Source of the DNA: a virus
IMG/VR virus record: IMGVR_UViG_3300030685_000016
Location: 1 to 64,000 of that record
Direction: 5' to 3' (one strand)
Length of the DNA: 64,000 bases
Shown: positions 26,169-61,520 of the stretch, piece after piece
Layout of the letters: every line of letters starts with the position of its first letter
Position numbering within the stretch: position 1 is the first letter of the stretch
Position numbers and translations under genes: made by a program
The notes under the pieces: model-generated
Seen by the model: only the letters and a program-made list of their open reading frames with translations
What the model was told of the DNA's origin: nothing
The model's database searches: none

Positions 26169-27269
26169 CTAAGCTTGAACTGTATAAGTAATGCTTGCAG
26201 TATTACCAACTGCATCAGTAACAGTAACAATTGCTGCACCTGTTCCTGTAACTCCATCAGTAGTAACTAATCCAGTAGCATTAACAGTTGCTCTTGTAGG
26301 TTGATCAGATACAAATGTAATTGCTCCAATTGCACCAGTAACAACCATTTGATCTGCAGTATTATCTGAAGTATCTAATGTAGCTGTTGTAGTAACAACT
26401 GCGGTTAATTTATAAGGTGTTGTTAAAGATAATTTATCTAATTCAGTTTCAAAATCAGAGACAAGATCCGCTTTTACCCAAAATACATGAGTTGTAATTG
26501 ATGTTGCACCAGAAACAATTCCATCTTGTCCATCTTTAGTTTTAGAATAACGAAGTGTATATTCTGTATAATTACCTCCAAGAATTGGACGTTCTTCTTT
26601 ACTAATACCAAAAGCACGAACATTTTCAGCAGTTGGAAGAACAACTTGTCTCATCATCCATGCATCATCACCAAAAGCAATAATTCCATTAGTAGTAACA
26701 GCACCAGTAGCTATTGTAGTAAACTCTGGTTGAATAATACTATTTGGAGAAGCAACTTCAATTGAAGCAGTAATTGCTGCAAATCTTTGAGATGTGTCTT
26801 TAGCTGTTAATGTAATTTCAGCTGAATTTGCTGAAGCAATTATATAACTATGTCCAAATCTATTTTTTAAGGTATTTAAAGCAGAAACTAAAGAAGCAGC
26901 ATCATTAGCTGCATTATTTGTTGCTAAAATTTCAACTGTAACTGGTTTTTTGAAATCTAAAGAATAGTTTACATATTCTGATAGTGTTGATTGAGAAAGT
27001 TTAAGATCAATATTTAATCTTAAAATAAGTCCAGCAGCAACTTGAGTAATTGTAATCTTTGCAACCTCTTTAACACCAGCTTGGTAAGGTCTTTTATGTA
27101 AAGCAACAATATTTGCTTTTTTGAAGGTACCTACTTTTGCAACGAAAAGTTGAGTAGCAGAACCAACATATTTATCTACAGCGGCACCATTGCTGTCAAG
27201 CAAAGCATTACCATCATAATCTACCGCATATTGCGAATTAATAACATTAGTTGTCGTAAATTGATACAT
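26169..27269 (-). CDS. Structural protein with C-terminal Ig-like domain
   Basis: 366 residues, TAG stop. The N-terminal ~270 residues form a beta-rich domain starting MYQFTTTNVINSQYAVDYDG. The C-terminal ~80 residues (TLDTSDNTADQMVVTGAIG... PTRATVNATGLVTTDG...AIVTVTDAVGNTASITYTV) resemble a bacterial Ig-like (Big_2) repeat of the kind found on capsid and tail surfaces. Its two Trp are both TGG. It is followed by a strong terminator, which fits high expression. Auxiliary capsid or tail-tube-like protein is the likely role; the choice is uncertain. Confidence 0.78.
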   Translation of the reverse strand: MYQFTTTNVINSQYAVDYDGNALLDSNGAAVDKYVGSATQLFVAKVGTFKKANIVALHKRPYQAGVKEVAKITITQVAAGLILRLNIDLKLSQSTLSEYVNYSLDFKKPVTVEILATNNAANDAASLVSALNTLKNRFGHSYIIASANSAEITLTAKDTSQRFAAITASIEVASPNSIIQPEFTTIATGAVTTNGIIAFGDDAWMMRQVVLPTAENVRAFGISKEERPILGGNYTEYTLRYSKTKDGQDGIVSGATSITTHVFWVKADLVSDFETELDKLSLTTPYKLTAVVTTTATLDTSDNTADQMVVTGAIGAITFVSDQPTRATVNATGLVTTDGVTGTGAAIVTVTDAVGNTASITYTVQA

Positions 27270-27305
27270 GTTATAAAATATTTATTTTTTTATTTAAAGA
27301 GTTAT

Positions 27306-28154
27306 CTATTTCTTGTGTGCTTGAGGTTGTTCTTGTTGAGGAGAAGCTATTGATTGATTAATTGGAATATGACTTTGTAATCTAGGATCACTTGCATTTT
27401 CCATTAATAAATGAATAAGTTCATTAACAATTTCCTGGGCAACATAATCTGGAAATTCTAATAATTGTGAGGTATCTTCTACTGCATCTACTTCTTCTTG
27501 TGTAAGACGAATAAATTGTGGTGCTCTTAAATAATCCACATAAACTTTTGAAAGTTTAAATATTGCATCATCTTTTCCATAACGAATCTCCATTCTAACT
27601 TTAGATCTATTACCATATCTATATTCTGCAGTTTTTTGAACCAGATCTCCAGGAGTACCTTGAGTATAGTTAACATCTGTAGGTTTAGTAGAAATAGGAT
27701 TAAGTATGTCTGTATTTACATTATTAATATAATAATATGGATTTTTATATGAAGGCCTCATATAATAATTATGTAATAATTGGGATAACATATCAGCAGT
27801 AGCACGTTTTGCTCCTTGCTGCCATTGCATTCCTGCATTATAACATTTATATTGTTTTTGAACAGTATATTCTACTATACAATTCAAAATATGTAAATAA
27901 TCATCTGGTAAATCAACGTCATAGGTTTTATCAAATAAATCTGATGCTGCCCATTCTGTTGCAGGAACTGGTACTAAAACCACTGATCCTTTTAAAACTC
28001 TTAAATCATCTGTTTTTTGTTGATTTACATCATAAGCGTTGTAAGCTTTATTGATGAACTGGTTCACAGCTTTATTTGCAAAATAATTATAATCCTCAAG
28101 CAAAAGACTCGGGGCTTCTCTTTTATTCAATTCAATTAAAGCAGCTTCGAACAT
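27306..28154 (-). CDS. crAss-type ring/connector protein
   Basis: 282 residues, TAG stop. The N-terminal APSLLLEDYNYFANKAVNQF and YDVNQQKTDDLRVLK segments match my recollection of the conserved crAss-like head-tail connector (ring) protein. The C-terminus is Gln/Pro-rich (SPQQEQPQAHKK). Both Trp are TGG. It lies two genes downstream of MCP in the usual crAss order. Confidence 0.78.
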   Translation of the reverse strand: MFEAALIELNKREAPSLLLEDYNYFANKAVNQFINKAYNAYDVNQQKTDDLRVLKGSVVLVPVPATEWAASDLFDKTYDVDLPDDYLHILNCIVEYTVQKQYKCYNAGMQWQQGAKRATADMLSQLLHNYYMRPSYKNPYYYINNVNTDILNPISTKPTDVNYTQGTPGDLVQKTAEYRYGNRSKVRMEIRYGKDDAIFKLSKVYVDYLRAPQFIRLTQEEVDAVEDTSQLLEFPDYVAQEIVNELIHLLMENASDPRLQSHIPINQSIASPQQEQPQAHKK

Positions 28155-28213
28155 TTGTTTTGCTGTGATGGTAGTAAATTATTAGAAAATTAATTTATAA
28201 AATTAATTTATGG

Positions 28214-29119
28214 TTATTTTTTATTAACAGGGCCCCCTTTAGGTTTTAAAGGCACACCTTCTACTAAATTAGATATATCATCTTCGAGTCCGGCACCTTC
28301 CTCAGCAATTTCTTTTTTAGTCATTAACTCAGGATAAGTCTCTCTTTTAATCGAATCTGTTAATTTCTTATATCGAATATCTCTTAAAAATGTAATTGTT
28401 GCTTCTATTGATCCGCCAAGCATTTTATCATCATATTTATAAATACCATCAGAACGTCTAATGACCCCTCTTTCAACAGAATCTAAAATAAATAAATGCA
28501 TTTTCCAATCCTCACCTTCATAAAGTTCAATAATTTTTTTAGGTGTCTTAGCAGCAATTTCTAATAAATAATCTAATACATCTGCAGGTACTGCGTTTTG
28601 TAAATTTCTTCCCAATACTCTAGCTTTTTTCACTCTTTCTTGTTCTGAATCTTCATAGATATATCTTTCAGCTGTGAAAATAACTTGTTTTTTATTAACC
28701 TTAGCTTTTGTGACTTCTCCTGGTCTTTCAACATATAAATCAGCTACACCATATCTTTTAGCTCCACCATCTATAATTAAATTTCCTTGATCATCACGTT
28801 GATATCTATCTTTTGCAATCCAGTTACAATTTTCAATGGCTTCTCAGTGGGCTTTATCTACAATATCATCTAAATCAAATCTTGTTCCATCAACAATTTG
28901 AAAAACTTTATCTGCTGGAACAAAATGTTTTTTACCTTTACTCATTTGATCAATATCATCTTCTGATAAAATCATCTCAGTATTATCAACAGGACCTTTT
29001 ACTGGTTTAACACAATCAGGAAGTCTTCCTGTTCTAGGATTAGGACATGGTTGTATATAATATATTTGATTTACTTTACCATACACACTTCTTAGAAGTA
29101 TTTCATTACTCATATTCAC
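28214..29119 (-). CDS. Conserved structural-region protein
   Basis: 301 residues; TGA at 28844 encodes Trp in DKAHWEAIENCNW (the second Trp is TGG). The N-terminus MNMSNEILLRSVYGKVNQIYY is followed by a Pro/Cys-rich stretch and a helical C-terminal half ending PKGGPVNKK. The gene directly follows the MCP terminator. No enzyme motif. Likely a head or connector protein by position only. Confidence 0.75.
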
Positions 29120-29165
29120 TTTTATTTTTTATATTTACGTATATAATCTAATTAATATTTATCTA

Positions 29166-29195
29166 AATAAAGGAGGAATTGCTTCCTCCTTTATT
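29166..29195 (-). terminator. Hairpin after the major capsid gene
   Basis: AATAAAGGAGGAA and TTCCTCCTTTATT form a perfect 13-bp stem with a 4-nt loop, placed 10 nt after the MCP stop. The T-run after the stem is short (TTTAG), so it may act as an attenuator or mRNA 3'-end stabiliser rather than a full terminator. Confidence 0.75.
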
Positions 29196-29205
29196 ATCTA
29201 TTTTT

Positions 29206-30636
29206 CTAAACTTCTTCAGCAATGAAGGATTTGTAAGGTGCAAAAGCAGCCAATCCTGCATAACCAGCAACGATTAATTTAGATCCAGCAACTGGAGAAC
29301 TAACAATACCACTTGTGATACCATCAATTCCACCTACTCCAGGATATTTAGAAGTAACAAATTCTGCACCAGCTAAAGTAAATCCAGCGATTGCAGGTTG
29401 ATTTGTACTCATATCAGGAGTCATGTCTAAACAAATTCCATAAGCTTTTGTTGGGTATTCTTTTGATAAAGCACGGTCTACCATGAATGTAACTTGATTA
29501 CCTGCAATTTGATATGTAGTAAAAGTTCCACCTACTTTAATAGGATTATCCACTTTCATCATAGCATTTGAATCTCTAGAATATAACATAGTAGGAGTAG
29601 ATCCCCATAATTTTAACCAATCACCAAGAGTTGTATTGATTTGTCCCCAGAATCTATCATTAATAACAAATGTATAGTTATTACCTGTTGGATTAACAGC
29701 TTTTTGATTCATTTGCTCCATTATAGTATTAATAACATTAATATTTAATTTTGCAAATTTGAATTTAGAGGCAAATCTTTCAATTTGTGGAACAAGACCA
29801 TCACCAGCAATTAATGGACGACCATCTTCTGTTAAAACAGTAGATTTTCCATTAACATCCATTGTGGTTTTTTGCCACAATAAAGCGTTGTTTTTCACTG
29901 TATTGAAGTTATCCAATAAGTCTTTTTCCATTTTGTTCAATTTGAACAATTTTTCTTTCATTTCACCAGTACCATCACCTTGGGCAATTTTAATAAACTG
30001 ATCTTCCATCTGTGCATAACGTGCAGAGTAAGAAATATCATTTCTATGCTCAGTTATCCATTGACGATGTTTTTCAATATTACTTTGGTATTTAGTAAAT
30101 CCTTCCTCATGATATTCAGGTTGAATATTTGCTAAGAAACGAGTAGTCATTCCTAATTGACAAGCTGATGCATCTAATATTGCTGAATAATCAGCATCAA
30201 TTAATTGTACTGTATAAACCCAAAAGTTATCAGCTTGTCTTTCTGGAGTTGCTTTTACAATACATTGTTGACGAGAGCCGTCAATTTTAAAGGTATCATA
30301 TTTCTCATAGTATCTTTCTTTAAAATACATGGTAATATCTGCACCAATAGCACCTGTTCCACTTGGAGCAGCTGCAAATTCAACACGTTTAACAAACTCA
30401 ACATCAATTTCCCATTCTATCATGAGAGAATTTATTGGCTGAAATTTATTAGCAGTTTTTGAATTATAATAAATATTCATTAAACCTTCAGTAAGGAATG
30501 TGGCAGTATTTTGAGTATTCATTCTTGCCATAACTCCCATCATCTTTGGTCTAGTTCCTAAAAATTTGTAGAAATCTTCATAAGTTCTACTGTGTGCCAT
30601 TTCTGGCTTTACGTTAACGTAACTTGCTACAATCAT
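29206..30636 (-). CDS. Major capsid protein (HK97 fold, crAss type)
   Basis: 476 residues, TAG stop. The N-terminus (KPEMAHSRTYEDFYKFLGTR) and the middle (FLTEGLMNIYYN, NSLMIEWEIDVEF) match crAss-like MCP; the C-terminal half has the long beta-rich A-domain typical of HK97-fold capsids. It follows the scaffold gene by 10 nt. All seven Trp are TGG although neighbouring genes use TGA. A strong hairpin follows the gene, which fits high-level expression. Confidence 0.93.
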   Translation of the reverse strand: MIVASYVNVKPEMAHSRTYEDFYKFLGTRPKMMGVMARMNTQNTATFLTEGLMNIYYNSKTANKFQPINSLMIEWEIDVEFVKRVEFAAAPSGTGAIGADITMYFKERYYEKYDTFKIDGSRQQCIVKATPERQADNFWVYTVQLIDADYSAILDASACQLGMTTRFLANIQPEYHEEGFTKYQSNIEKHRQWITEHRNDISYSARYAQMEDQFIKIAQGDGTGEMKEKLFKLNKMEKDLLDNFNTVKNNALLWQKTTMDVNGKSTVLTEDGRPLIAGDGLVPQIERFASKFKFAKLNINVINTIMEQMNQKAVNPTGNNYTFVINDRFWGQINTTLGDWLKLWGSTPTMLYSRDSNAMMKVDNPIKVGGTFTTYQIAGNQVTFMVDRALSKEYPTKAYGICLDMTPDMSTNQPAIAGFTLAGAEFVTSKYPGVGGIDGITSGIVSSPVAGSKLIVAGYAGLAAFAPYKSFIAEEV

Positions 30637-30646
30637 TTTTTAAATC

Positions 30647-31621
30647 TTAAAATAAGTCGTGTATATTTTCTTTTCTTTTTGATGCGTTTTGCACAACGAC
30701 ATTAGGCTTAACTGGTTTTTTTAATTTTGCTATCTCTGCTTCGTAAGCATTTTTTATCGCATCAAAGGCTTCCTTGCCATAACGCAAATACCAAGCAGCT
30801 TCGTAAAGTTTTACTGGGTTATTTAAATCTTTATAAAAATTACTTAATCCTTTATCATCTAATTCTAACAAATAAGATAAAGTCTCATTCTTATCTTCAT
30901 CTTCAAGATCAATTCCATGAAACTCATTTATTTTAGTAGCAATATCAACCATTTGATCCGCAAATTGATTGTATTCCTGTTCTCTAAGTTGCTCAGCTTC
31001 TTGAGCCTGAGTAAGTTTATATTGATCTTCAAGAATTTTATATTCTCCTCTTAATTTTGTAACTTTTTTATTAAAAATCTCTGGATTTTGTAATTCTTTT
31101 TCAAGTTCAGCAACTAATTCCTCATCTGTTAATTCAAATTTATTTTTTAAATCTAAAAGAAATAACTCTTGATCATCATATGCGTCTATATCATATGTTG
31201 CCTCAGTTTGTTTTCCTAATTCTGTATAAATTGAATCTTTAAATTGTTGTAAGAAAGTTTCAACTGTTAAATTATTTGATCTTAAATGGTTTAGTAATAA
31301 TATTTCTTCTTCAGCTAAATCAGGAGTAGTTACTTCATCTTCATTTCTTGCATTTAAAATCTCTAGTTGTTCTTCTTTAGTTAATCCGTAAAAGTCAACT
31401 TCTTGTTCTTGATCTTTTTCATCTAATATTTTAATTTTTGCATTACTTATTCCTCTTGATTTTAAGAGTTCATCTAATAATGTGGGCTCTTTAGAAGAAG
31501 AACCTTCTTCTTCTAATAAAAAGTTATCATCATTTAAATTTTCACCTATAATAGGTTCATCATTTACTCCCTCAGTCCCAGAATTTTCATCAAAAAGGTC
31601 ATCAAATTCTTCCATTGTCAT
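30647..31621 (-). CDS. Acidic coiled-coil capsid scaffolding-type protein
   Basis: 324 residues, very acidic at the N-terminus (MEEFDDLFDENSGTEG) and Glu/Lys-rich coiled coil in the middle (EELVAELEKELQNPE, RGEYKILEDQYKLTQ), ending KRKENIHDLF. Position directly upstream of MCP, composition and size fit a scaffolding protein. One Trp, TGG. A TAnnTTTG promoter lies about 85 nt upstream. Confidence 0.78.
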   Translation of the reverse strand: MTMEEFDDLFDENSGTEGVNDEPIIGENLNDDNFLLEEEGSSSKEPTLLDELLKSRGISNAKIKILDEKDQEQEVDFYGLTKEEQLEILNARNEDEVTTPDLAEEEILLLNHLRSNNLTVETFLQQFKDSIYTELGKQTEATYDIDAYDDQELFLLDLKNKFELTDEELVAELEKELQNPEIFNKKVTKLRGEYKILEDQYKLTQAQEAEQLREQEYNQFADQMVDIATKINEFHGIDLEDEDKNETLSYLLELDDKGLSNFYKDLNNPVKLYEAAWYLRYGKEAFDAIKNAYEAEIAKLKKPVKPNVVVQNASKRKENIHDLF

Positions 31622-32675: not shown

Positions 32676-34262
32676 TTAAAGAATTTGATTTATTAATTGT
32701 ATTTCGTCTGGTAAAAGAATTCTATTCCAGATTGTAAATTTTGATAATAATCCAGATATTGTATATGATAATGAATATCTGGAACCAATATACCAATTTT
32801 TTGTTCCAGATATTGGTGTACCTGCTGATTGATTTATATTTCCATATAAAATATTATTAATGTATATGTTAGTAATACCCAGTGATGTTGACGTTATTAG
32901 AACAGTATATGTGGTATTATAATTTAAATTTCCTCCGATTGCACTCGTTATGTTATTATCTCTTGTAACACTTAGTATACCACTAAAATATATATATAAA
33001 CTCCCATTATCAAATATAACTCCATTTGAATGCATTCTAAATTTAAAAGCAATTGTTAAATCTCCAGATAAATTATCAATTGGATTATATATAAGTCTAG
33101 CTGCTCCATTAAAATACATAGCACCAAGATTACTCTCTGGGGAGAGAATAAATGTAGTAGCAGAGTTGGTTGCTGTTAGGCTATTGGTCTTATCTACCCA
33201 TGTGGCAGATGTGAGACCTTCTGCGTTTAAATTCAATACACATCCAGCTTGAATTAATGATGCATTATCAATTGATAAATTAGAGACTCCAGACCAAACT
33301 GCATATGATAGCGAAGTCCCAACAGCTATAAATAAATCTATAAAAGTTCCATTTCCAGTATGCTGTGTATAACCCAATGAAGTATTAACTCCTACTGTAC
33401 CACTTACGTAATTTATACAATCAAATTTATTAATATATCTTTTATCAATAGTCATCAATCCAGCTTGTTGTAATGTGTTTCCAGCAGTTGTATTAGCTGT
33501 CCCACCAGATATTGTCCAACCAACCCCTTTAGACCATATTGTATCTGTTGCGAAATCTCCATTAACTACTAGATTAGCCCCAGTTGTTCCTATGATTCTG
33601 TCTATCCACTCAATGGGATACTCTGGCTTAGAGTAGTTTATAACTTGCTGAGATGTTAAAGCATAATTAAATACTCTGAACATATAAATAGAACCTTTAA
33701 AGTAACCAGCCCAAAATCTTCCAATATTATAATCAGTAGCTGTAATATTTACACTTGTACTTAATGAAATTAATACATGATCTCTTAGTATACCATCCAA
33801 ATAACAGTCAACATATGAGGATCTTGTAACTATGATTGAAAGTGAATGATTTACTCCAGAAATTATTGCAGAACTTGCATTAGGAAAATAAAGATTAATA
33901 TATGTAGTTGGTGTACCTAACTCAAATGTTAACTGTTTATTATAAATCCATAAACCAATTCCATCACTTCCAGTAGTTTGGCCAAATAAACCTTGATAAG
34001 ATAATGCTGTTTTATCTGAAACATTAAAATTTATTATAATAGAAAAATCATTAACACCAAATGGTGGTAATGAAGATATAATTGATTTTGAGTTTACTCC
34101 ATTACAATCTAATGCTCTCCTTCCATTACCTTTATTATCAAGAACTGGATAAACAGCAGTATTAGTGGGAATTGTTCCACTAACTAAATCTCTACCACCA
34201 CTCCATTCATCTAGGGGTGTGTGAAAAATCATTCCTTTTTGTAGTTCTGCTATTTGTCTCAT
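32676..34262 (-). CDS. LamG-like fibre/adhesin paralogue 1
   Basis: 528 residues. It starts MRQIAELQKGMIFHTPLDEWSGG and contains two concanavalin A/LamG-like beta-sandwich regions (about 60-190 and 370-520) joined by a carbohydrate-module-like middle (TIWSKGVGWTISGGTAN). The same skeleton, including WVDKT-SLTATNS and TIWNRIL, recurs in the next two genes. Likely a receptor-binding or head/tail fibre protein that binds surface glycans. All ten Trp are TGG. Its ATG overlaps the upstream stop as TAATG. Confidence 0.82.
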   Translation of the reverse strand: MRQIAELQKGMIFHTPLDEWSGGRDLVSGTIPTNTAVYPVLDNKGNGRRALDCNGVNSKSIISSLPPFGVNDFSIIINFNVSDKTALSYQGLFGQTTGSDGIGLWIYNKQLTFELGTPTTYINLYFPNASSAIISGVNHSLSIIVTRSSYVDCYLDGILRDHVLISLSTSVNITATDYNIGRFWAGYFKGSIYMFRVFNYALTSQQVINYSKPEYPIEWIDRIIGTTGANLVVNGDFATDTIWSKGVGWTISGGTANTTAGNTLQQAGLMTIDKRYINKFDCINYVSGTVGVNTSLGYTQHTGNGTFIDLFIAVGTSLSYAVWSGVSNLSIDNASLIQAGCVLNLNAEGLTSATWVDKTNSLTATNSATTFILSPESNLGAMYFNGAARLIYNPIDNLSGDLTIAFKFRMHSNGVIFDNGSLYIYFSGILSVTRDNNITSAIGGNLNYNTTYTVLITSTSLGITNIYINNILYGNINQSAGTPISGTKNWYIGSRYSLSYTISGLLSKFTIWNRILLPDEIQLINQIL

Positions 34263-35908
34263 TATTGATTAAGTATTGTTGTTGCTAATTGTATTTCATC
34301 TGTTGAAAGTATTCTATTCCAAATAGTTGGTTTAGATTGTTTTCCAATATAATTTATTGTATTATATTGTGATCCTCCAAAATACCATGATGTAACACTT
34401 AATGGAGTACCACAATTTGAGTTAGGAGTTCCTACTGATACACCATTAATATAAACGTTAGTTATTCCAGCAGATGTTGAAGTAATGATTAATATATATG
34501 TGGTATTGGGTTGTATTGTTGAAAAAGTAACCCATGTAGTAGCATCTCTCTTAACTTGTATTGCAGTTAATCCCGCGTATATACTTATACAAAATCCATT
34601 AGGTAAAGCCAAAACATATCCACTAGATAAATTTAGAATTGGAATAATTTTCATAGCAAATGTAATGTCCCCAGTTAATCCATTCATTCCAGTATAAGCA
34701 ATATTTGCCAAACCATTAAAATTAAAGGCTCCTAAATTACTTGTAGTAGGCATCTGAAATAATGTGGCACTATTAGTAGCAGTCAATGTGTTGGTCTTAT
34801 CAATCCATGTTCCAGAAGTTAATCCTTCAGAAGTGAGATCAAGAATTGAACCAACTTGAACACATGAAATATTATCAATTTGAATATTAAAATTATTTCT
34901 TCCATCAAATGCACAAAAACAAGTAGATAAATCAGAAAATCCTTTAGAATATATTCTAACAATACCAGTTCCAGATAATGTTTGTGCTCCTATATATGAT
35001 AATCCTGTCCAAAATCCATTAAATAAGCAAGTTCCTGAGTTAACTTTATATTTAAATGATAGTTTACATATTTTTCCAGTATCACCAACTGTTTTATTAA
35101 ATGTAATTCTTGGTCTTGTGGCACCAGTTCCTTGTGATGAAACCACTAATAATCCATCTTTAAGATCTGAGATTGGAGAATTTGTGTTAAGTGTCCAAGA
35201 CGATGTTTCACCACCATCAGATAATAATGTTCCAATAATTCCACTTTCAAAATCTCCACCAGAAATTGTTTCAGTTAATACTACTCTATCAGCATATTCT
35301 ATTGCATACTCTGGTTTTGAATAGTTAAGAATTTGTTGATATGATAAAGCATAATTAAAAATTCTACACATTGAGATAGTACCATCAAAATATCCACCAG
35401 TTCCAAATAATCTTGTTGATGCTACTGAATAGTCAAAAACATCAGAAAATGAACCACATGCAACATTGTTTATATAATATGTTCCAATTCCATTATTTCT
35501 TACATAAGATATAGCGTATTCTGTATTTGCTACTAATGCTACTATAGACTGAGTAACTTGTCCCACACCAATCTTGCTTGACTGAATAAAGCCTGTAGAT
35601 AGAATGTAAATTTGAAAAGCGTTACTTGCACCACCAATTATATTTCTTAACGACCCAATAGTATTTGTTTTTATCTTAACTGATACAGAAAAATCATTTG
35701 TACCAAAAGCTGGCATAGATGGTAGTGATACATATGAAGATGCACCATCTCCACTTAACCATCTTCTTCCATTTCCTTCATTATTAATAGTTGGATATGC
35801 AGCAGTAATAATACCAGTAGAACCTCCTACTAAATCACGAGCACCCATCCATTCATCAAATGGTGAGTGAAATATAAGTCCTCGTTGTAAATCTGATATT
35901 TGTCTCAT
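34262..35908 (-). CDS. LamG-like fibre/adhesin paralogue 2
   Basis: 548 residues, starting MRQISDLQRGLIFHSPFDEWMG. Same two LamG-like regions and middle module as its neighbours, ending PTIWNRILSTDEIQLATTIL. The three paralogues share start, domain order and end but differ strongly in the loops, as expected for receptor-binding diversification. All eight Trp are TGG. Translationally coupled to the next gene by TAATG. Confidence 0.82.
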   Translation of the reverse strand: MRQISDLQRGLIFHSPFDEWMGARDLVGGSTGIITAAYPTINNEGNGRRWLSGDGASSYVSLPSMPAFGTNDFSVSVKIKTNTIGSLRNIIGGASNAFQIYILSTGFIQSSKIGVGQVTQSIVALVANTEYAISYVRNNGIGTYYINNVACGSFSDVFDYSVASTRLFGTGGYFDGTISMCRIFNYALSYQQILNYSKPEYAIEYADRVVLTETISGGDFESGIIGTLLSDGGETSSWTLNTNSPISDLKDGLLVVSSQGTGATRPRITFNKTVGDTGKICKLSFKYKVNSGTCLFNGFWTGLSYIGAQTLSGTGIVRIYSKGFSDLSTCFCAFDGRNNFNIQIDNISCVQVGSILDLTSEGLTSGTWIDKTNTLTATNSATLFQMPTTSNLGAFNFNGLANIAYTGMNGLTGDITFAMKIIPILNLSSGYVLALPNGFCISIYAGLTAIQVKRDATTWVTFSTIQPNTTYILIITSTSAGITNVYINGVSVGTPNSNCGTPLSVTSWYFGGSQYNTINYIGKQSKPTIWNRILSTDEIQLATTILNQ

Positions 35909-35909
35909 A

Positions 35910-37508
35910 TTAGAAGGTTTGATTTATTAATGCAATTTGATCTGAAGATAAGATTGTATTCCAAATGGCAAGTTTATTCATTCTTCCATTGTAAAATCCA
36001 TTTCCAGCTTGTTGTGCTATATTTAAAGTTGATCCACCATCTACTGGAGTACCAGCAGCTTGATTTGCAGTTCCACTTAGAACTCCATTAATATAAAAAT
36101 TTGTTACACCATCAGACTTAGAAGTTATTAGAATAATATTTATGGTATTTAAATTAATACTATTATTTATTGAAGCAATGGTAGTTGAGCCAGCTCTACT
36201 AAATCCTAATCTCATAGTAGTTAGTATATTTATCCAACATTGAGTATTAGAAAATATATACCCAGTTGTAAGTATAGATATTGGATTAATTATAACTGCT
36301 ATTGTAATATCTCCAACTAATCCATTCATTCCATTATATACAATTTTTCCAGTACTTCCATTAAAATATGTAGTACCTAAATTGCTAGAACTTGGTAAAA
36401 TATATTGACATCCAGAATTAGTAGCAGTTAATGAATTAGTCTTATCTACCCAAGTAGATGTTCCCATACCTTCTGAATTTAAATCTAATACACACCCAAC
36501 TTGAATTAACGATAAATTACTAAAATCTGCATCAGTAGCACTTCCAGATCTTTTTATTGCAAGTGTTGAAGAAGCAGTAATTATGTATGAATAGGTTCCT
36601 GGAATTGCTAATATAGGTATAGTACTAATTCCACCATCAATAGCTAATTGACCTAATCTGTTGGCCAATAGTTGTATTGTTAACCTATATTTTTTATTAA
36701 TTAACCAAATAGCATCTTTATATATCTCTGCAATTGCTCCAGATGTGTTTATATTACAAATACCTCCAGAAATTGTTACATTACCAAGCTTTGACCAAAA
36801 ACCAGTGTCAGAAGAGAAATCTCTATCTGCTGAATTAGTAATTAATTCTGTTCCTATAGTACCTATAATCCTATCAGCATATTCAATAGCATATTCAGGT
36901 TTAATGTAATTAACTATTTGAGTTGGAGTTAGTGCATAATTGAAAATCCTTAACATAGATATTGATCCTGCAAATCTATTATTAGTAGCATCACCAGAAT
37001 TAATTCTATTAAAAGTAATTGCTGTACCGCCACTACCCATTGTGATTGTTTGGTGAAATATACCATCTATATATAATGAAATATTTCCTTTTCCATCTGC
37101 AACATAAGCAATAGTAACCCATGTGTTAATAATTGGAACATCAGAAAAATATCCATAAACGAGACTCTGATTTCTAAATGACCAGACATTTCCTACATAA
37201 TTAATATTAATACCATCATTATGGACTGAACTTCCTACGAGAAAACTCCAGCCTAATTTACTTGGATTAATTTTCAATATAATACTAAATGCGTCTGTGG
37301 CTGAAAACGTAATGCTTGGAAATGAGGTATAACTATAAATAGTATTGCTATAATCCAGCCACCTCCTCCCATTACCTTTATTATCTATTGTTGGATAAAT
37401 AGTAGTAGGTGTACCTATCGCTCCACTAACAAGATCACGAGTTCCACTCCATTCGTCCAATGGTGCGTAGAAAATAAGATTTTTTTCTAATTCTGCTAAT
37501 TGTCTCAT
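35910..37508 (-). CDS. LamG-like fibre/adhesin paralogue 3
   Basis: 532 residues from ATG at 37508. An upstream in-frame start at 37547 would add 13 residues, but the MRQLAELEKNLIFYAPLDEW start aligns exactly with the other two paralogues and follows the upstream stop by one base. Same LamG-like double domain. All ten Trp are TGG. Start and function assigned by comparison within the window. Confidence 0.82.
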   Translation of the reverse strand: MRQLAELEKNLIFYAPLDEWSGTRDLVSGAIGTPTTIYPTIDNKGNGRRWLDYSNTIYSYTSFPSITFSATDAFSIILKINPSKLGWSFLVGSSVHNDGININYVGNVWSFRNQSLVYGYFSDVPIINTWVTIAYVADGKGNISLYIDGIFHQTITMGSGGTAITFNRINSGDATNNRFAGSISMLRIFNYALTPTQIVNYIKPEYAIEYADRIIGTIGTELITNSADRDFSSDTGFWSKLGNVTISGGICNINTSGAIAEIYKDAIWLINKKYRLTIQLLANRLGQLAIDGGISTIPILAIPGTYSYIITASSTLAIKRSGSATDADFSNLSLIQVGCVLDLNSEGMGTSTWVDKTNSLTATNSGCQYILPSSSNLGTTYFNGSTGKIVYNGMNGLVGDITIAVIINPISILTTGYIFSNTQCWINILTTMRLGFSRAGSTTIASINNSINLNTINIILITSKSDGVTNFYINGVLSGTANQAAGTPVDGGSTLNIAQQAGNGFYNGRMNKLAIWNTILSSDQIALINQTF

Positions 37509-37509
37509 G

Positions 37510-38598
37510 TTATGATTTTGATATGATTCTCCAAGCTGAAGTAACACTATTCCATGCGAATCCTACATCTAATCTGACTCCTAGAACTGTAGTAGTAGGC
37601 AATGTTATCGTACCTGACGCTTCAAATTTTGCACCCCACGTAATTGCTCTTGCTGTACCATTATCAGTTATATCAAACCATAATTGATCTCCTTGTAATG
37701 GAGTACCAGTTAAATTAGTAGTCATTGATGTAATAGCCTGAGCTAATCCAGTAATATGTACTTGATCAGTAACATCAGTGTTAATAGTAGGAGTAGCTGA
37801 CTGAGTTACTGCTGGAGCACGTTGAGTTATTCTTTTATTAGTAAGTGTTTGTACAACCGTTAATCCTGCAATAGTATCAGTAGCTGGAAAGGTTAATGTT
37901 GAAGCATCTACACCAGCAAATGTTAAGCTATTAGAAACATTCAATTTTTTTCCAGTTGCTACAATTACTCCTTCATACCAGTAATTCCATGAAGCTATAC
38001 CAGTACCTCCAGCTACATTTATACACGTAAATGTAGCTGTTGATCCAGCAGCCATAATTATTAACTGATTACCACCAGAAGTGTTAACAGTTATAGCACC
38101 AGTTGAACTATTTGTAATCCAAAAAGATGCACCATTTCTTAAGGTAGTTACAACTGGTAAAACTAATGTTTGAATAAGTGTGCCAGTAAAAAATTGTTGA
38201 TATGCTGAAGATGAAGTTAACGTAGTTGTACCACTAGCTGTTGCTTGAGTAGTATAACCCTCTAAAAGATTAGTTACAGAAACTAATGGGTTATTAACAC
38301 TACCTGCACCATCAGATAATGCTGTTACTTTAAATAAGTCAACACCACCTACAGTTATTATAACACCATGCTCAGTTCCAGCAGGTGATAATGCATCTAC
38401 TGGAATATCAATAAACCTATTAACGCCAGCATTTCTAACATGAAATAATGCATTAATGCCAACTGGTTGTCCAAATGTTGTAACATTATCTTTTGATAAT
38501 TTAAATAAATTGGCAATATTTCCTGTATAATCTAAAGCAGTTTGCCATGTATCATTTGCATATGCAACTATAGTTGCTAAAAGTACTTTAGGTCTCAT
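37510..38598 (-). CDS. Beta-rich fibre/structural protein
   Basis: 362 residues: MRPKVLLATIVAYANDTWQTALDYTGN..., then a Thr/Ser/Gly-rich beta-helix-like body (TTTLTSSSAYQQFFTG, VSNSLTFAGVDASTLTFPATD) typical of phage fibres, ending AWNSVTSAWRIISKS. All eight Trp are TGG. It lies immediately upstream of the LamG triplet and could be a shared fibre shaft; inference. Confidence 0.72.
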   Translation of the reverse strand: MRPKVLLATIVAYANDTWQTALDYTGNIANLFKLSKDNVTTFGQPVGINALFHVRNAGVNRFIDIPVDALSPAGTEHGVIITVGGVDLFKVTALSDGAGSVNNPLVSVTNLLEGYTTQATASGTTTLTSSSAYQQFFTGTLIQTLVLPVVTTLRNGASFWITNSSTGAITVNTSGGNQLIIMAAGSTATFTCINVAGGTGIASWNYWYEGVIVATGKKLNVSNSLTFAGVDASTLTFPATDTIAGLTVVQTLTNKRITQRAPAVTQSATPTINTDVTDQVHITGLAQAITSMTTNLTGTPLQGDQLWFDITDNGTARAITWGAKFEASGTITLPTTTVLGVRLDVGFAWNSVTSAWRIISKS

Positions 38599-39758: not shown

Positions 39759-39864
39759 AGTAAATTCTTTAAAATAAAATTCAATATTTTAAAAAATTAT
39801 TAATAAATAAGTATATCTTAATTAGACTTTATTATTTTTAATCTTAAAATATGCATAAATTTAT

Positions 39865-48217: not shown

Positions 48218-50443
48218 TTAATATTTTCAAGTACTGTTTTTAACCTCATCATTTCTATGATTTTCATCTAATAATTGTAGCCCTTCAAGTTGTACACCTT
48301 TCTTTTCTAACTCTAATTTCTCTTCGTTAAAACTATTTAAGGTTTTAGCTTGATACCATTTCAATTGTTTTTCAAATTCCAATCTATCTCTTTCAAGTTG
48401 TAACTTGTCTGCAGATAGTTTTTGAACTTCTTGTTGTAACTTTTGAGCTTCAGATGTTGTTTCTTTCAATTGTTTATCCAATTGTTCAACTTGCTGAGAT
48501 AATTGTCCAAGTTGATTATTTTCTTTTCTTTTCTTATTTAATGCTAATAAAACATCTTCTTTCATTCTTGTTAATCCTGAAGAAGTAATTACTTCCAGAA
48601 TAATTTCTGGATCAACATTTCCTGCTTTTATAAATTCAGAAGATAATTGTTTTATTGTTTCTTGTTCTTTCATTATTTCTGTAGTATCTGATACATGTAT
48701 ATCATAATCAGTTATTGTATAATGTTCTGGTAATGCAGTAAATACTTTATTTAATCTATCACCTAGAATTAATGTTCCAGAAATTCCTTTCTTATAAATA
48801 ATTTTAGCAAGGTTAAGAATATCAAGTAATATTTCTCTTGTCATTAAATCCATGACTTGATAATATTGTTTTGTAATAAAAAATGATTGTTGTACTCCAA
48901 CTTTAACATTTGTTACTGCATCTTTTTGTTCTATTCCTCCAAGTTTTTCTTTAAAAACTCCAGTAATAGTTGAACAAGTTTCTTCTACTCTTTGTATAGC
49001 TAATTCAATTGCCTGTATTGCATTTAATTTAACTGTATCATCATATCCACCAAAAGTTGTATTCATAGGAGGTAATCCTTCTTGAGAAGAATCTATAATT
49101 TTTATACCAGTTTTTCCATATGCTTTCCATTTCATTAATCTTTCAGTTAAATCTGATCCTAAAACTTTTGGTAAATATGCTATATCTAATCAATCACCAG
49201 TAGAACCTGATTCTGCAATAATATTATCTCTATAAAAATGTAATATATCAAATTTATCCTGTAAATTAGCTGTGCTTAAAATTAAAGACCAAGGATCTCC
49301 ATTTCTATCTGCATAAAACATTCCATTAATAGTTAGTGAACAATGTTTTGGATTATCAGCACTTCTAATTATATTTTTTGATAAACCTGTTGGAATAAAT
49401 ATATTAGTTCCAATACGAGTTCCTTCATATCTATTCATAATATATTCATTATTTTTATCCTTTTCAGATTTTAATCATTCTACTTCATATACAGGATATA
49501 CTCTAAAATACTTAGAAGTATTTCTTTCATAAGGTAATAGAGGTGTAACTTCAAATCCTCCTAAAATTCCATCAGAGATAGTATTTCCAGTAGTTGAATC
49601 ATAACTTCTTAGATAAGTTGTAGTAGAACCATCAATACTGAAATCTTCCATATCTTCTAATTTCTCTAAATCATCTGGAGTAAGTATATCTCCATATCTT
49701 GCAAAGATTTGATCTTTTGTAAGATATTCACGAGATACTGCTCTCATTGAATCTTTTAAATATGGTGATTCAGAATTTCTATCAATAAAAGTATTGATTG
49801 GATTTAGTACTTTTAATTGAACATTTTCCTTAGAATCAGATGCAAGTACTCTATAATAACATGTACCTGATACTAACATATCAGTTAATATTGTTTTTCT
49901 TTTATTAGTAAAATCAATGTTTCTTGATTGCATTGCTCAATCTATAATATTTTGTCCTGCAATTTCGTAATCAGATATGAAATTTCTTTCAGTTGCCTCT
50001 AATACTTTATCAAGTTCTTCCTGTATTTGTGAATCAGGAGTTCCTGGTTTTCCTTGTAAAGCAGAATAAATTTGATTTTGTAAATGTTGTTTCAATACAT
50101 TTACAATTTCAGAATTTATTTTTAATTGTTTATCTCTATGAATATTAGATAAAGTATCTTCATCTTTGCATGAAATTCTTGGAAGTAATGGTGTTGATAA
50201 ATATTCCCCAATTAAAACATCTACATGTTTTCTCACCAAAGGAATAAACTCTACTGATGTAGGTGTACCTATACCATAATTTTCTTCTAGATGCCTAAAT
50301 TGCTCAGGATCTCTTTTTCCATGATAATAATTATAGGCTTTAATTAATTGAGTTTTTTCATAAACTAACTCATTAATTGCTCTGTTAATATTATCAAGAA
50401 TTTCTTGTTCTTGTTCTTGTTTATTCTTTTTCTTTTGAGTCAT
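48218..50443 (-). CDS. Portal protein (crAss type; TGA=Trp)
   Basis: 741 residues in one frame with TGA=Trp. The N-terminal YEKTQLIKAYNYYHGKRDPE and VEFIPLVRKHVDVLIGEYLSTP, the middle RSADNPKHCSLTINGMFYADRNG and NAIQAIELAIQRVEETCSTI...VTNVKVGVQQSFF, and a C-terminal coiled coil (QLSQQVEQLDKQLKETTSEA) all fit crAss-like portals. It lies downstream of TerL. The stop is TAA at 48218 after W-K-Y; a standard-code reading would end at TGA 48227, three residues earlier. Confidence 0.88.
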
Positions 50444-50696
50444 TTGTTCTAATTACTTTATACATATCAGCTCTCATGTAATTTCTTGTTCTTATTTCTG
50501 CATAAATAAAATTTAAAAAACTTTCATCATTATCATAATCACATGTAATTGTTGTAGGAAACATATAACTAGGAATACCTATAATAAAAACATAACCTGG
50601 ATTAAGTTTCTTTACTTGCAATAATCCAATATACTCTGCTTTATAACAATTCTTTATATAATCAAGAATCACTTGCCTTAATTCTACTTCGTCCAT
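50421..50696 (-). CDS. Small helical protein between terminase and portal
   Basis: 91 residues from ATG at 50696 (MDEVELRQVILDYIKNC...); this start follows a purine-rich AAGAAG stretch. A longer start at 50744 is possible but would overlap TerL more. It overlaps the portal start by 23 nt and the TerL C-terminus by about 56 nt. No motif recognised. crAss-like phages often keep a small gene at this junction. Confidence 0.65.
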   Translation of the reverse strand: MDEVELRQVILDYIKNCYKAEYIGLLQVKKLNPGYVFIIGIPSYMFPTTITCDYDNDESFLNFIYAEIRTRNYMRADMYKVIRTNDSKEKE

Positions 50697-52755
50697 TTCT
50701 TTCTTCTTCAGTTTTAGGTATTTTACCTCAATGTTTATAACCATTTCTATCAGTAAATCATCCTATATCACTAAATGTTTTACCCTTTGGTTCTCTTTCT
50801 TCTGGTTTTTTAAAAGATAATTCCTCATCTCCTAATTCAGCCATTCCCATAGCTGCCACAATATCAAAGTCTTTCTTTTTCTCATCAGAATAGTTTAATA
50901 ATTGTTCAACCATTTCTCTAAATGCAATTGTATGAGAATAATCTAAACAAAAATCATATATCAATTCTCTATAGTGTGTAATTACTTTTAAAGTTGCAGG
51001 AGTTCCTCTCATTTGTGAATTACCTTTAGATACATCTGGCATAGTCGCACGTGGACGTTTCATTAATAATTCTATCATTTTTTTATCTCTAAAATAAGTA
51101 GAGATAGCTGTTCTAGTTGATTCTAAAACTGCTTGGCAACCATAATAAGTTAATAATTTTGCTGCATTATCATAAGCTTCTCTAGGATCTCTGGGTCTAT
51201 CTTTATATATTGCAACATACATTGGTTCAGATATTCCAAATACTCTTTTCTTAATTACTATACAGAAATCAGAAACAGTTTTATCATCTTGATTAGATGT
51301 ATCATCAGTTCCTATATCAATAGAGTCAATTCCTCCAACATATAAATTCTTATAGTCTAGTCCTGCTTCAGATAATAACGGATGTTCAATTATTAAAATC
51401 TTTCCATCACCTTCTTCTCTTCCTTCTCTTCATTTTACTCCAGTGGGATTATCTTTATCATCTCTCTGCCAAACTAAAGATCCAAAATGTGGTTTTGGAA
51501 CATCTTTATAAATATCAATCCTTGCCATTTGCTCTGCAAGTTCTTCTCTTGGAAACATATTATCACCTTGTTGGATTAATGCTTCCTCAATTGTAAAACA
51601 GAACTCTGCTTTAAAGATTAATAAACTTTTAGGGTTTGCAACCTTTGTTTTTCTAATCTCATTTCAATATTCTTCTGCTGCATCTCTATTACATCATCCT
51701 CTTTTGTCTACTAAACTTGCAACCATTCTAGTTGCAGGAATAAACATTCCAGTTAAAATATATTTTCTATCAGGAGTATAATTATGTCTAACCTTTAAAA
51801 TATTATAAACATCTGGTTTAAGAATTAAATCTCTCATTCCAGCTACAGCAGCTCCTTTATCTCCACCTGTACCCCAAGCAATTCGTATTCCAATTCTATC
51901 TCCTCCAAGTACAGTTACTAACGCTTCTGCTTGTAAGAATTTTTCAAGTAATATTTTATCAGCTCCGGCTTCTTCAAATAAAATTCTTTCAGTTCTATCT
52001 CCTCTGATTTTCTCAGCTGAGTCTACAACTAATCCTTCTATTTCAGACATATGCCCAGTTTCTCCACCATCTCTTAATTTCTTAGAAGCACGTTTATGCA
52101 TGGCAGAATTCTGAACCATTCTTACACGTTTAAATGCTCCTTCAGTTTCAGATGATAACCAATCTAATTGGAACCAGGCTTTAGCTAATAATGGTTTTAA
52201 TAATTTCTCAGAGAATGCAGATGCAACAACTCTATAATTTGGTGTTGTAATAAAAGGTCTAACACATAAACAAGCACCCATTTCGGAATAACCTAACGCA
52301 CGTGCTTTAAGAAGTCCCACATCCTTTCTTAATATTTCACACATTTCAACATAATGAAAAAACTCATACTGAAATACTAAAAATCTAGGAAAAGCCATTG
52401 TTCTACCTGAACCAGCTTTTGCATCTTTATCAGAATCTTTTAAGTGGTAAAAATTTAATCAAAAATAATTATCACCAGTGATTCTATATCCATTAATTTC
52501 ATAACCTTCTTTACATCTTTTAAATTTTTCATCCCAAAAATCACGATAACTTTTAGTTCCAACTATAGTTTTACTATATCTTCCAGTTTTAATTTTTGTA
52601 ATAGCATCAGGTCTAAATCAATCAGGATTAAAATCTAATCCTTTAGTATCATTAATAGGTCGATAACCAGTTATTTCATATGATAATTCTGGATCAAAAT
52701 ACTCAATTTTCTGATCTATTGGTATATCTCACTTAACTGTAAATTCCTTAATCAT
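50641..52755 (-). CDS. terL: Large terminase subunit (ATPase-nuclease)
   Basis: 704 residues with TGA=Trp. N-terminal packaging ATPase: Walker A-like LLKARALGYSE (about 148-158), Walker B RILFEEAGAD, and QLDWLSSETEGAFK. C-terminal RNase H-like nuclease: YVGGIDSIDIGTDDTSNQDD (about residue 475). Several Trp are TGA (e.g. KWDIPI, PDWFRP, NYFWLNF, EEYWNEI), so standard-code reading breaks it into several pieces. The stop TAA at 50641 lies inside the next small gene. It is preceded by a 191-residue gene that could be the small terminase. Confidence 0.92.
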
Positions 52756-59204: not shown

Positions 59205-59420
59205 TTAAAATCTTGTTGGAATACATCCAGATTCCACAATATCCCATTTATAAAAAGATCCATCTGGAAATTTAAACTCTTTTAATTTATCAATTATTTC
59301 TTGATTATCAATTCTTAATTTTAAATACTCATTTACTTGAACATAAAATGCTGGCATATCAATTACTCTTACAAGTGGAAACCGTGCACTCATTTTATAT
59401 ATTTCATTAAATTTTTCCAT
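59205..59420 (-). CDS. Small hypothetical early protein
   Basis: 71 residues: MEKFNEIYKMSARFPLVRVIDMPAFYV...LRIDNQEIIDKLKEF...SFYKWDIVESGCIPTRF. Overlaps the HNH gene by one base (TAATG) and precedes the HTH gene closely. Trp is TGG. Function not recognised. Confidence 0.7.
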   Translation of the reverse strand: MEKFNEIYKMSARFPLVRVIDMPAFYVQVNEYLKLRIDNQEIIDKLKEFKFPDGSFYKWDIVESGCIPTRF

Positions 59421-59968
59421 TACTTTCTATACTTAGCTCTTGCAGAGTCCTTATTCTTAGATTTAAATGTATCTAATTGAGAATCACAGTTTGGGCAGAT
59501 TAATCTTAAATTAGTTCTCTCATTATTGTCTGCATTTCCATCAATATGATCTAAAATAAAAACTAAATTTTCACCATTCCACATATCCTCCATCTTACAT
59601 ATAGAACATTTATGATTCTGTTCTTCTAAAAAATGTTTTTTATAATGCTGCATATTTTTTTGACCATATGCAATAGAATTATCTAACTGATATTCTTGAT
59701 AATGTTTTTTACTTTGATATTCTCCTCTACAACTTATAGAACAACACTCTGTTCTACCTCCTCTACCATCTTTTGCTGGTTTAAATTCTTTGCCACAATT
59801 TGGGCATATTTCGTTAAGAATTTTGTTTTTTCTATTAGGTACATCAATACCTAATTTTAATGCCCATTGTTTAATTGTTTTATCCGAAACCCCAAACATT
59901 TTTCCTAATGTAGTATAAGGTAACTTATCTACTATTAATAATTGTTCTAATTCCTCTTTTGTTGTCAT
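59420..59968 (-). CDS. HNH endonuclease with N-terminal HTH
   Basis: 182 residues. N-terminal HTH (KLPYTTLGKMFGVSDKTIKQWALKLG), a zinc ribbon (CPNCGKEF...CCSISC), and an HNH domain with a second zinc site (KCSICKMED, LDHIDGNADNNERTNLRLICPNC). This layout matches phage homing-type HNH endonucleases. Both Trp are TGG. It lies right after the UCA tRNA, inside the standard-code block. Confidence 0.88.
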   Translation of the reverse strand: MTTKEELEQLLIVDKLPYTTLGKMFGVSDKTIKQWALKLGIDVPNRKNKILNEICPNCGKEFKPAKDGRGGRTECCSISCRGEYQSKKHYQEYQLDNSIAYGQKNMQHYKKHFLEEQNHKCSICKMEDMWNGENLVFILDHIDGNADNNERTNLRLICPNCDSQLDTFKSKNKDSARAKYRK

Positions 59969-59974
59969 TTATCA

Positions 59975-60006
59975 TTTTACATTTACACTTACACTTACAC
60001 TTACAT
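59975..60006. repeat. TTACAC-type hexamer tandem repeat
   Basis: About five consecutive hexamers TTACAT/TTACAC lie between the HNH start and the 3' end of the UCA tRNA. On the minus strand this is GTGTAA repeats in the tRNA 3' trailer. It may be a slippage site, a processing spacer or chance; no gene covers it. Confidence 0.6.
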
Positions 60007-60008
60007 TG

Positions 60009-60081
60009 CGCCTTCACTTCGATTCGAACGAAGATCTAATAATTTTGAAGATTATTGTTTTAGCCGTTAAACTACGAAGAC
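60009..60081 (-). tRNA. tRNA with anticodon UCA (opal-decoding, probably tRNA-Trp)
   Basis: A complete 73-nt cloverleaf. Acceptor GTCTTCG pairs with TGAAGGC (two G-U pairs); D stem GTTT/AAAC; anticodon stem ATAAT/ATTAT with loop CTTCAAA, so positions 34-36 are TCA; 5-nt variable region; T stem CTTCG/CGAAG with loop TTCGAAT. The discriminator is G73, as in bacterial tRNA-Trp, and CCA is not encoded. UCA reads UGA codons. No Sec-type long acceptor or variable arm is present. It lies 15 nt downstream of a small early gene with a TACCTTTG promoter, so it is probably made early. Charging with Trp is inferred from G73 and from Trp at TGA sites in conserved motifs. Confidence 0.93.
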
Positions 60082-60096
60082 ATTTCTTTATATATT

Positions 60097-60312
60097 TTAA
60101 AATCTTCTTCGGGTAATTATATTTATACCTTCTAGAATGTCTTCTAGTTTACTTTTATCGCCATAATAATATAACCAACCCCTATCTGTTATTGTAGTAT
60201 CAAATACTTCTATATCATCTCCCTCAATTCTTACTGTCCAATTCTTTTTACACCATTCCTGGTCATTCGCATTGAATCTAAAACCGTGCTTTGTCAATAC
60301 TTCATCCATCAT
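60097..60312 (-). CDS. Small early protein upstream of the UCA tRNA
   Basis: 71 residues from the ATG at 60312 (MMDEVLTKHGFRFNANDQEWCKKNW...), which follows AAAGGA; a GTG start at 60333 would fall inside the promoter octamer. It reads TVRIEGDDIEVFD...GWLYYYG and ends IITRRRF. The three Trp are TGG. Only 15 nt separate it from the tRNA, so both probably come from the same early transcript. Function unknown. Confidence 0.7.
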   Translation of the reverse strand: MMDEVLTKHGFRFNANDQEWCKKNWTVRIEGDDIEVFDTTITDRGWLYYYGDKSKLEDILEGINIITRRRF

Positions 60313-60332
60313 TCCTTTATATTTTACATACA

Positions 60333-60340
60333 CAAAGGTA
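60333..60340 (-). promoter_or_regulatory. Bacteroidetes-type promoter TACCTTTG before the tRNA unit
   Basis: Minus-strand TACCTTTG fits TAnnTTTG and is identical to the element at 62836-62843. Transcription would start about 10 nt downstream, just before the AAAGGA/ATG of the small early gene, and run into the UCA tRNA. No clear -33 box. The host sigma factor is the likely reader. Confidence 0.55.
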
Positions 60341-60420
60341 ACAAATTTTTTTATAAAAAATCTTAAAATATAAAAAATATAAAAAATTTTACTTCTATAT
60401 ATTTTTAAACTTAATATTTC

Positions 60421-60473
60421 AAGATTTATAAAAGTTAATCCTTAAAAATTAATTCAATTCATTTATAAATCTT
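60421..60473. repeat. 12-bp inverted repeat in divergent intergenic region
   Basis: AAGATTTATAAA (60421-60432) and TTTATAAATCTT (60462-60473) are perfect inverted copies with a 29-nt spacer, inside the 220-bp AT-rich gap between the early minus-strand gene and the plus-strand transglycosylase. Its right arm shares TATAAATCTT with the repeat at 58108-58140. Candidate binding site. Confidence 0.5.
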
Positions 60474-60522
60474 ATCAATAAAAAAATTCATCAATTTTAT
60501 TTTTTATGTAAAATATAATCTT

Positions 60523-60530
60523 TAATTTTG
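60523..60530 (+). promoter_or_regulatory. Bacteroidetes-type -7 element for the transglycosylase gene
   Basis: Plus-strand TAATTTTG (TAnnTTTG) 25 nt before the ATG of the only large plus-strand gene. No clear -33 box. The leader would be about 17 nt. Confidence 0.4.
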
Positions 60531-60554
60531 TAAAATCAATAATCATTAAACAAC

Positions 60555-61520
60555 ATGGTAACTGAAATAAATTGAATTGAAAATAAACAAACTGGTAAAA
60601 AAATAAACTGGTTACAGAAAGGATATAAACTTCCATCTAAAATAGAACGTGCAAAACGTCAAATGGTAATAGAAAGTAATTTAGATTCACTTGCTACTTC
60701 ACCCAAAGGAGCTTATGGATGATTTCAGATGTTACCTGGTACTCATAATGATTATGTAAAAGAAACTGGAGATAGATCATCCTTTGGTCATTTATCTAAT
60801 TTTGATCAGGCTTTTAAAGAACGAAATTGATATATGGATAAACTTAATAATCTTGATTTTTTAAAAGATAAACCTGGAACTCCATTAGTAAAAGCAGCTA
60901 AAACTTATGCTACATATAATGCAGGTCCGGGTCCAATAGTAAATGCACTTAATGATGCTAAAGCTAGAGGAGAAGATATTTATAATAGTCTTGGCTGATT
61001 AAATGATATACCAGAAGAAAGTCGTAATTATGTAAATAAAATGTTTGGAAAAGATCCTACATTTGAACAAAAATATAAAGAGTCAAAGTCTAATCCTAAT
61101 GCTTCCTTTCTTAAGAAAATAAAATTTCAAGCAGGAGGATTATTTAATACTAATAAAACAGCATATGTTGATAGTGTATTAAATGCAAATAAACATTTGG
61201 ATTGAGTAAAAAGATTATTTGAAAATCATCCTATATCTATTCCAACTCCTAAAGATATATCCTCAGAAAAAGGAATGATGTCAACACATCTAATGTCTGA
61301 TAATAATGAAGGATATATGTTTCCAAGATTACAATTAATTAATGGTAAACTAACTGACTTAGGAAATAGAGCTGAAGATTATGCAAGGGATACTAATACT
61401 GGAATACAATTACCAAAAATACAAGGAACTTGATTGGCAAGAAATGGTTATAAACAAGGAACAGGAGTTTTAATAAAATATCAAAAAGGAAATAAATTAT
61501 TTTTAATTCCTAAAAACTAA
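60555..61520 (+). CDS. Lytic transglycosylase-like SLT domain protein (TGA=Trp)
   Basis: 321 residues when TGA is Trp; six of the seven Trp are TGA, so a standard-code reading misses the gene entirely. SLT-type core: VIESNLD with probable catalytic E40, SPKGAYGWFQMLPGT (W56 is TGA and sits in the normally conserved G-x-x-Q segment), and TYATYNAGPGPIV (about 119-129). The C-terminal half has FLKKIKFQAGGLF, the shared GG motif, then a second domain with PTPKDIS...GYMFPRLQLING. A peptidoglycan-cleaving virion or lysis protein; the GG motif and C-terminal domain hint at virion association. It is followed by a tiny open frame and a terminator. Confidence 0.88.

Follow-up and report, generated by a model that had tools for sequence, protein, structure and literature searches.

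A UCA tRNA that probably decodes UGA as tryptophan lies in a conserved cassette upstream of the terminase of a crAss-like phage

Introduction

Opal suppressor tRNAs and TGA-to-Trp recoding are already published for crAss-like phages in two reports. Yutin 2021 (PMC7886860) presents UGA and UAG suppressor tRNAs together with reassignment of TGA to Trp, mostly in late genes, and PMC12386605 presents zeta phages, including Lera, ct1yV3 and c815351, with TCA tRNAs and opal suppression. An earlier note on the DNA analyzed here, which stated that suppressor tRNAs are known in recoded phages of this kind, agrees with both. Sup-TCA occurs in 11 of 73 table-4 phages (PMC11210395), and code-4 phages have been described that encode RF1 and TrpRS together with a suppressor tRNA, for which control of late and lysis proteins was proposed (PMC10746230). 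Theta ribozymes, HDV-like elements at the tRNA 3′ end, are found at phage suppressor tRNAs that are nearly all amber (PMC10879173). The known hosts of Crassvirales are Bacteroidota that use the standard code (PMC10136315).

Here, we describe a tRNA gene with anticodon UCA in a stretch of 64,000 bases (the window) that spans positions 1-64000 of a virus record 172,188 bases long. Like the phages of Yutin 2021, Lera, ct1yV3 and c815351, this crAss-like phage of ~170 kb has numerous tRNAs, one of them with anticodon UCA, and TGA is probably read as Trp mostly in its late genes. A difference is that the UCA tRNA is found here outside the tRNA cluster, in a conserved cassette upstream of the terminase. 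The phage shares with the code-4 phages (PMC10746230) a suppressor tRNA that would read UGA as Trp, with a proposed role in late and lysis control, but neither the TrpRS nor a release factor of those phages was found in this record. As with the suppressor tRNAs associated with theta ribozymes (PMC10879173), the tRNA is proposed to switch the code; however, it is opal rather than amber, and no ribozyme was detected.

Results and Discussion

A UCA tRNA outside the tRNA cluster

The large terminase subunit (TerL), portal, major capsid and muzzle proteins all give profile matches of the crAss type, which places the phage in Crassvirales, and by this measure it is crAss-like. Neither the capsid nor the muzzle protein had a match when searched against the PDB. 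Record size and tRNA number fit the zeta group, for which the name Echekviridae is proposed among crAss-like phages. The plus strand between 72.6 and 113.6 kb holds all of the 28 further tRNA matches that exceed the Rfam cut-off in the record. This cluster, apart from which the UCA tRNA is located, includes a tRNA-Trp(CCA) of the same phage at 106996-107070. The plus-strand tRNA at 96527-96599 of the record (L011 12527-12601) would be a Leu tRNA by its anticodon, UAA, but is devoid of the long variable arm of tRNA-Leu.

The UCA tRNA gene is 73 nt long and occupies 60009-60081 on the minus strand, where the Rfam tRNA model (RF00005) scores 56.2 bits (E 4.3e-11). The earlier note had given these coordinates, which the Rfam match reproduces exactly, and had left out the strand. 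It had also described a complete cloverleaf, anticodon UCA and discriminator G73, all of which hold. The 7 acceptor, 4 D, 5 anticodon and 5 T pairs are formed without exception (21/21), leaving a 7-bp acceptor stem and a short variable loop. ARAGORN makes a single tRNA call in the window, at 60008-60081 on the minus strand with anticodon tca, and none when the window is dinucleotide-shuffled 60 times, while free-energy folding by itself is not distinctive (z -1.26). The anticodon (positions 34-36, placed by the ARAGORN position 34 and the parsed loop CUUCAAA) lies at 60046-60048. G73, at 60009, is followed by CAA, and CCA is therefore not encoded in the gene. Since the anticodon is UCA, the tRNA is expected to decode UGA. 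A full tRNA fold with UCA thus occurs in a phage with in-frame TGA in conserved genes, as in a phage opal suppressor tRNA.

Directly 3′ of the tRNA, before the next gene, are short GTAAGT-like tandem repeats (59975-60006, minus strand), and GAAAAT-like tandem repeats lie directly downstream of the tRNA in the relatives L071 and L091. The next gene, at 59420-59968 on the minus strand, is HNH-endonuclease-like by an HNH_3 match that is weak and falls short of the curated cut-off, and its homologue in the relative G003 (L055 12361-12903) is likewise downstream of the tRNA. A search for ribozymes, such as the HDV-like element, gave no match within 59300-60700 (E up to 10) or in the tested loci of relatives (E up to 1).

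Two meanings of TGA in one genome

Most genes of the late minus-strand block are open only if TGA is sense. Outside three TGA-poor blocks, the late genes of the window contain 121 TGA versus 34 TGG, and this count, together with alignments of homologues, upholds the earlier claim that the late genes need TGA as a sense codon. Putative clients of the tRNA are the genes for TerL (50641-52755, minus strand; phrog_6681, E 2.8e-62) with nine sense TGA, the portal protein (48218-50443, minus strand; phrog_6547, E 1.4e-50) with four, and the muzzle protein (17253-21659, minus strand; Pfam crAss_MUZ, E 4.4e-20) with 23 TGA and a single TGG. A further candidate client is an endolysin-like lytic transglycosylase gene with six sense TGA (60555-61520, plus strand; Pfam SLT, E 8.7e-9), which is divergent from the tRNA cassette. 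Three giant ORFs at 155-172 kb have 22, 6 and 21 TGA.

The plus-strand block at 64-155 kb behaves differently from Mycoplasma, where a tRNA-Trp(UCA) serves NCBI code 4 and UGA is Trp genome-wide and not a stop. The phage tRNA shares with its Mycoplasma counterpart the UCA anticodon and, probably, the reading of UGA as Trp. Unlike in Mycoplasma, UGA is still a stop in the early genes: TGA terminates 24 of the 118 plus-strand ORFs, several of these stops overlapping the next start as ATGA, and Trp is encoded by 289 TGG. NCBI code 4 thus does not apply genome-wide. Since the ORFs of this set end at TGA by definition, lists of TGA-open ORFs were used to judge how rare sense TGA is; in the long plus-strand ORFs of these lists, most TGA are near the 3′ end or ahead of a likely start. 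Backup stops after the early TGA stops show no excess in the block (P 0.21). The TGA stops and the use of TGG for Trp suggest that the host probably terminates at UGA, and a host that uses UGA as a stop is the most likely case. UGA therefore has two meanings in one genome, divided largely between early and late genes. A few plus-strand ORFs have internal TGA, so the division is imperfect. The ORFs at 128650-129792 and 151987-152718 have four TGA each if TGA is sense, unlike their neighbors, and the endolysin-like gene at 60555-61520 is a further exception with several internal TGA.

The residue at sense TGA

Window-TGA sites were aligned codon by codon with related contigs of <95% identity. 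The homologues have TGA at 65 of the 124 sites, Trp at 27, Tyr at 19, Phe at 4 and other states at 9. Conversely, at 133 window-TGG sites the homologues have Trp in 63 cases and TGA in 31. Trp makes up 0.5% of all aligned residues in this comparison. For TerL, the columns with TGA in any recoded relative were read in seven phage records and in the TAG-recoded L023, eight phages in all that lack sense TGA. These show Trp 25, Phe 22 and Tyr 20 times in 108 positions; against a 1.6% background, the nominal binomial P for Trp is ~1e-21, in phages that are related to each other. Arg is found at none of the 124 window-TGA sites and at 2 of the 108 TerL positions. The late genes thus have Trp at homologous TGA positions, as under NCBI code 4. 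The exchange between Trp and TGA, along with the enrichment of Trp at TGA sites, makes decoding of UGA as Trp by the phage tRNA well supported at the level of sequence comparison.

Identity of the tRNA and alternative explanations

The tRNA itself fits this reading in G73, A36 and its loop CUUCAAA, and has the combination of G73 with C35-A36 that marks tRNA-Trp. Pair 1-72 counts against Trp. The pair A1-U72 is usual in bacterial tRNA-Trp, though not strictly defining, and is present in the UCA tRNAs of the relatives G005 and G017; the window tRNA has G1-C72 instead, and pair 1-72 is G-U in both the G003 UCA tRNA and the tRNA-Trp(CCA) of the phage itself. Database matches of the UCA tRNAs are mixed, being mainly phage tRNA-Trp genes for G005, mainly phage tRNA-Arg genes for G003 and, for the tRNA of the window, nothing beyond 25 nt of a tRNA-Arg from a Cellulophaga phage (E 0.6). 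The two last results, and the Trp-or-Arg isotype call for the Lera TCA tRNA in PMC12386605, are what one might expect if the UCA tRNA derived from a tRNA-Arg(UCU) by a single U36A change and were still charged with Arg, making UGA an Arg codon. This is very improbable in view of the near absence of Arg at TGA sites and of base 20. A20 is an identity base for ArgRS; it is present in the matched tRNA-Arg, whereas the window tRNA has C20, and it is absent in 32 of 33 UCA tRNAs examined, 31 of which were retrieved with a pattern favoring Trp-like anticodon arms. An Arg ancestry with changed identity is possible. Trp as the identity, which the earlier note had put forward as an inference, is thus strengthened by the TGA/TGG exchange and the aromatic residues at TGA sites, as well as by G73, A36, the missing A20 and the tRNA-Trp relatives of the G005 tRNA; these sequence features point to Trp. 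Descent from one of the other tRNAs of this phage found no support, a crude alignment with free end gaps giving no convincing match. As for selenocysteine, suggested by the ARAGORN label SeC that is assigned from the anticodon, its probability is negligible: bacterial tRNA-Sec exceeds 90 nt and has an 8-bp acceptor stem and a long variable arm, which the structure of this 73-nt tRNA, with its 7-bp acceptor stem and short variable loop, contradicts, and TGA is frequent here in ordinary structural genes.

Even with Trp at UGA, the code could be that of the host, shared by the phage, as in Mycoplasma, and many table-4 phages do infect Mycoplasma or Spiroplasma (PMC11210395). We regard this as very unlikely, given the plus-strand TGA stops, the ATGA overlaps and the TGG used for Trp there, and also given structural genes of the Crassvirales type, whose known hosts have the standard code (PMC10136315). 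It is improbable, too, that the tRNA serves mainly to disturb host termination or defense by readthrough, with the late TGA codons as a by-product, since TGA codons and the tRNA co-occur in relatives with TGA recoding, and it is in the late and lysis genes that the TGA codons are concentrated; such a disturbance could be an added effect rather than the main one.

A conserved cassette of box, small ORF and tRNA

A small ORF of 71 aa (60097-60312, minus strand; leave-one-out HMM, E 9.7e-15) ends 15 nt before the tRNA and is its proposed cassette partner. Upstream of it, at 60333-60340 on the minus strand, is the box TACCTTTG, a proposed -7 element of a Bacteroidota-type promoter serving both ORF and tRNA, on the basis of the conservation of TAYCTTTG. 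The 15-nt gap after a small upstream gene and the TACCTTTG box had both been reported in the earlier note and are correct, the box being conserved as TAYCTTTG in five lineages with its promoter role a proposal; the early-looking character of the unit, also claimed there, fits the TGA-free minus-strand block around the tRNA and the promoter-like box. Across the whole window, enrichment is significant neither for TACCTTTG (6 found vs. 2.8 expected) nor for TAnnTTTG. In five lineages, the window included, the TAYCTTTG box is placed 246-313 nt upstream of the UCA tRNA, for which the nominal joint chance is ~2e-12 in lineages that are not independent.

All five lineages have an ORF of 66-72 aa between box and tRNA, so that the cassette of TAYCTTTG box, small ORF and UCA tRNA is conserved among them. 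Besides the window copy, members of the protein family were seen upstream of the UCA tRNA in L055, L057, L071 and L074, and leave-one-out profile searches recover each member with E values of 1e-14 to 1e-23. Neither Pfam nor PHROGs gives a significant match to the protein, and a search of annotated phage records gave none at all. Its predicted fold has a pLDDT of 84, and a fold search gave no match at E <=0.001, the best being uncharacterized phage proteins. In all five lineages, the UCA tRNA is 5-13 kb upstream of the terminase on the same strand.

Among TGA-recoded relatives, the UCA tRNA is present in G003, G005, G017, the single lineage G014/G023/G027 and, more distantly, G021, where it does not have this position relative to the terminase. 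It was not found in other TGA-recoded relatives, whose contigs are short fragments. The relative G011, recoded at TAG, carries a CUA rather than a UCA tRNA, and the small ORF was found in neither G011 nor G021. In TAG-recoded L023, the CUA tRNA (1430-1502, minus strand; G011 39764-39835) is ~8.5 kb from the terminase on the opposite strand. The contig L091 has two UCA tRNA calls; that at 7871-7943 is the cassette tRNA, and that at 184-259, with the odd loop AUUCAGC, may be a false call.

A proposed switch of the code

We consider it highly probable that the tRNA is an opal-decoding tRNA-Trp, made early together with the small protein and charged by the host, which competes with RF2 and so enables the TGA-rich late genes. 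The tRNA would be transcribed early with the small conserved protein from a host-type promoter, matured by host enzymes and charged by host TrpRS, and once charged would compete with host RF2 at UGA. Neither a TrpRS-type domain nor a release-factor domain was found in the phage record, which may be incomplete, and we therefore infer that the tRNA relies on the TrpRS of the host and competes with its RF2. In the plus-strand early block, most genes would need no UCA tRNA, because their Trp codons are TGG and TGA is usable as a stop. The late genes (terminase, portal, muzzle, giant proteins and endolysin) would give full-length products only with enough charged tRNA, and their dependence on it would link production of the virion and lysis proteins to the late stage of infection. 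Against this scheme, the early genes would have their TGA stops read through as infection proceeds, and these stops show no excess of backup stops.

With two meanings of UGA in one genome, and a separate, conserved cassette for the tRNA, the proposed control of late phage genes by a code switch becomes testable, and attention is drawn to a protein that accompanies the UCA tRNA. That this protein, so far found only beside the UCA tRNA, is itself part of the switch is a tentative suggestion that we think rather unlikely. If it were true, the cassette would be a two-part switch for opal reassignment, in which the protein might, for example, inhibit host RF2 or aid the tRNA. A limited literature search found no description of the cassette or its protein in the accessible parts of published work on crAss-like phages.

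The capsid gene and the reassigned codon

The major capsid protein gene (29206-30636, minus strand; Pfam Crass_capsid, E 3.3e-12) has no TGA and seven TGG, whereas TGA/TGG in TerL of the window is 9/5. Capsid gene and TerL have 1/6 and 9/4, respectively, in G003, and 1/6 and 13/2 in G027. These three TGA-recoded capsid genes are not independent, since they are homologous and those of G003 and G027 share their single TGA. However, the avoidance spans two different codes, TGA=Trp and TAG=Gln: in the TAG-recoded G011, the ratio of TAG to CAR is 1 to 18 in the capsid gene and 17 to 11 in TerL. A limited literature search found no description of such avoidance in capsid genes. The capsid gene likely avoids the reassigned codon because a reassigned stop is decoded more slowly or leakily and this protein is the most abundant. 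Avoidance under both codes suggests that a reassigned stop carries a decoding cost, even for phages adapted to it.

The loci with capsid avoidance are 26169-31621 of the window, a neighborhood with 1 TGA and 14 TGG, and L112, L113 and L114. The four late-block genes at 32676-38598 (minus strand) have no TGA and 36 TGG, which could reflect recent acquisition or selection against TGA.
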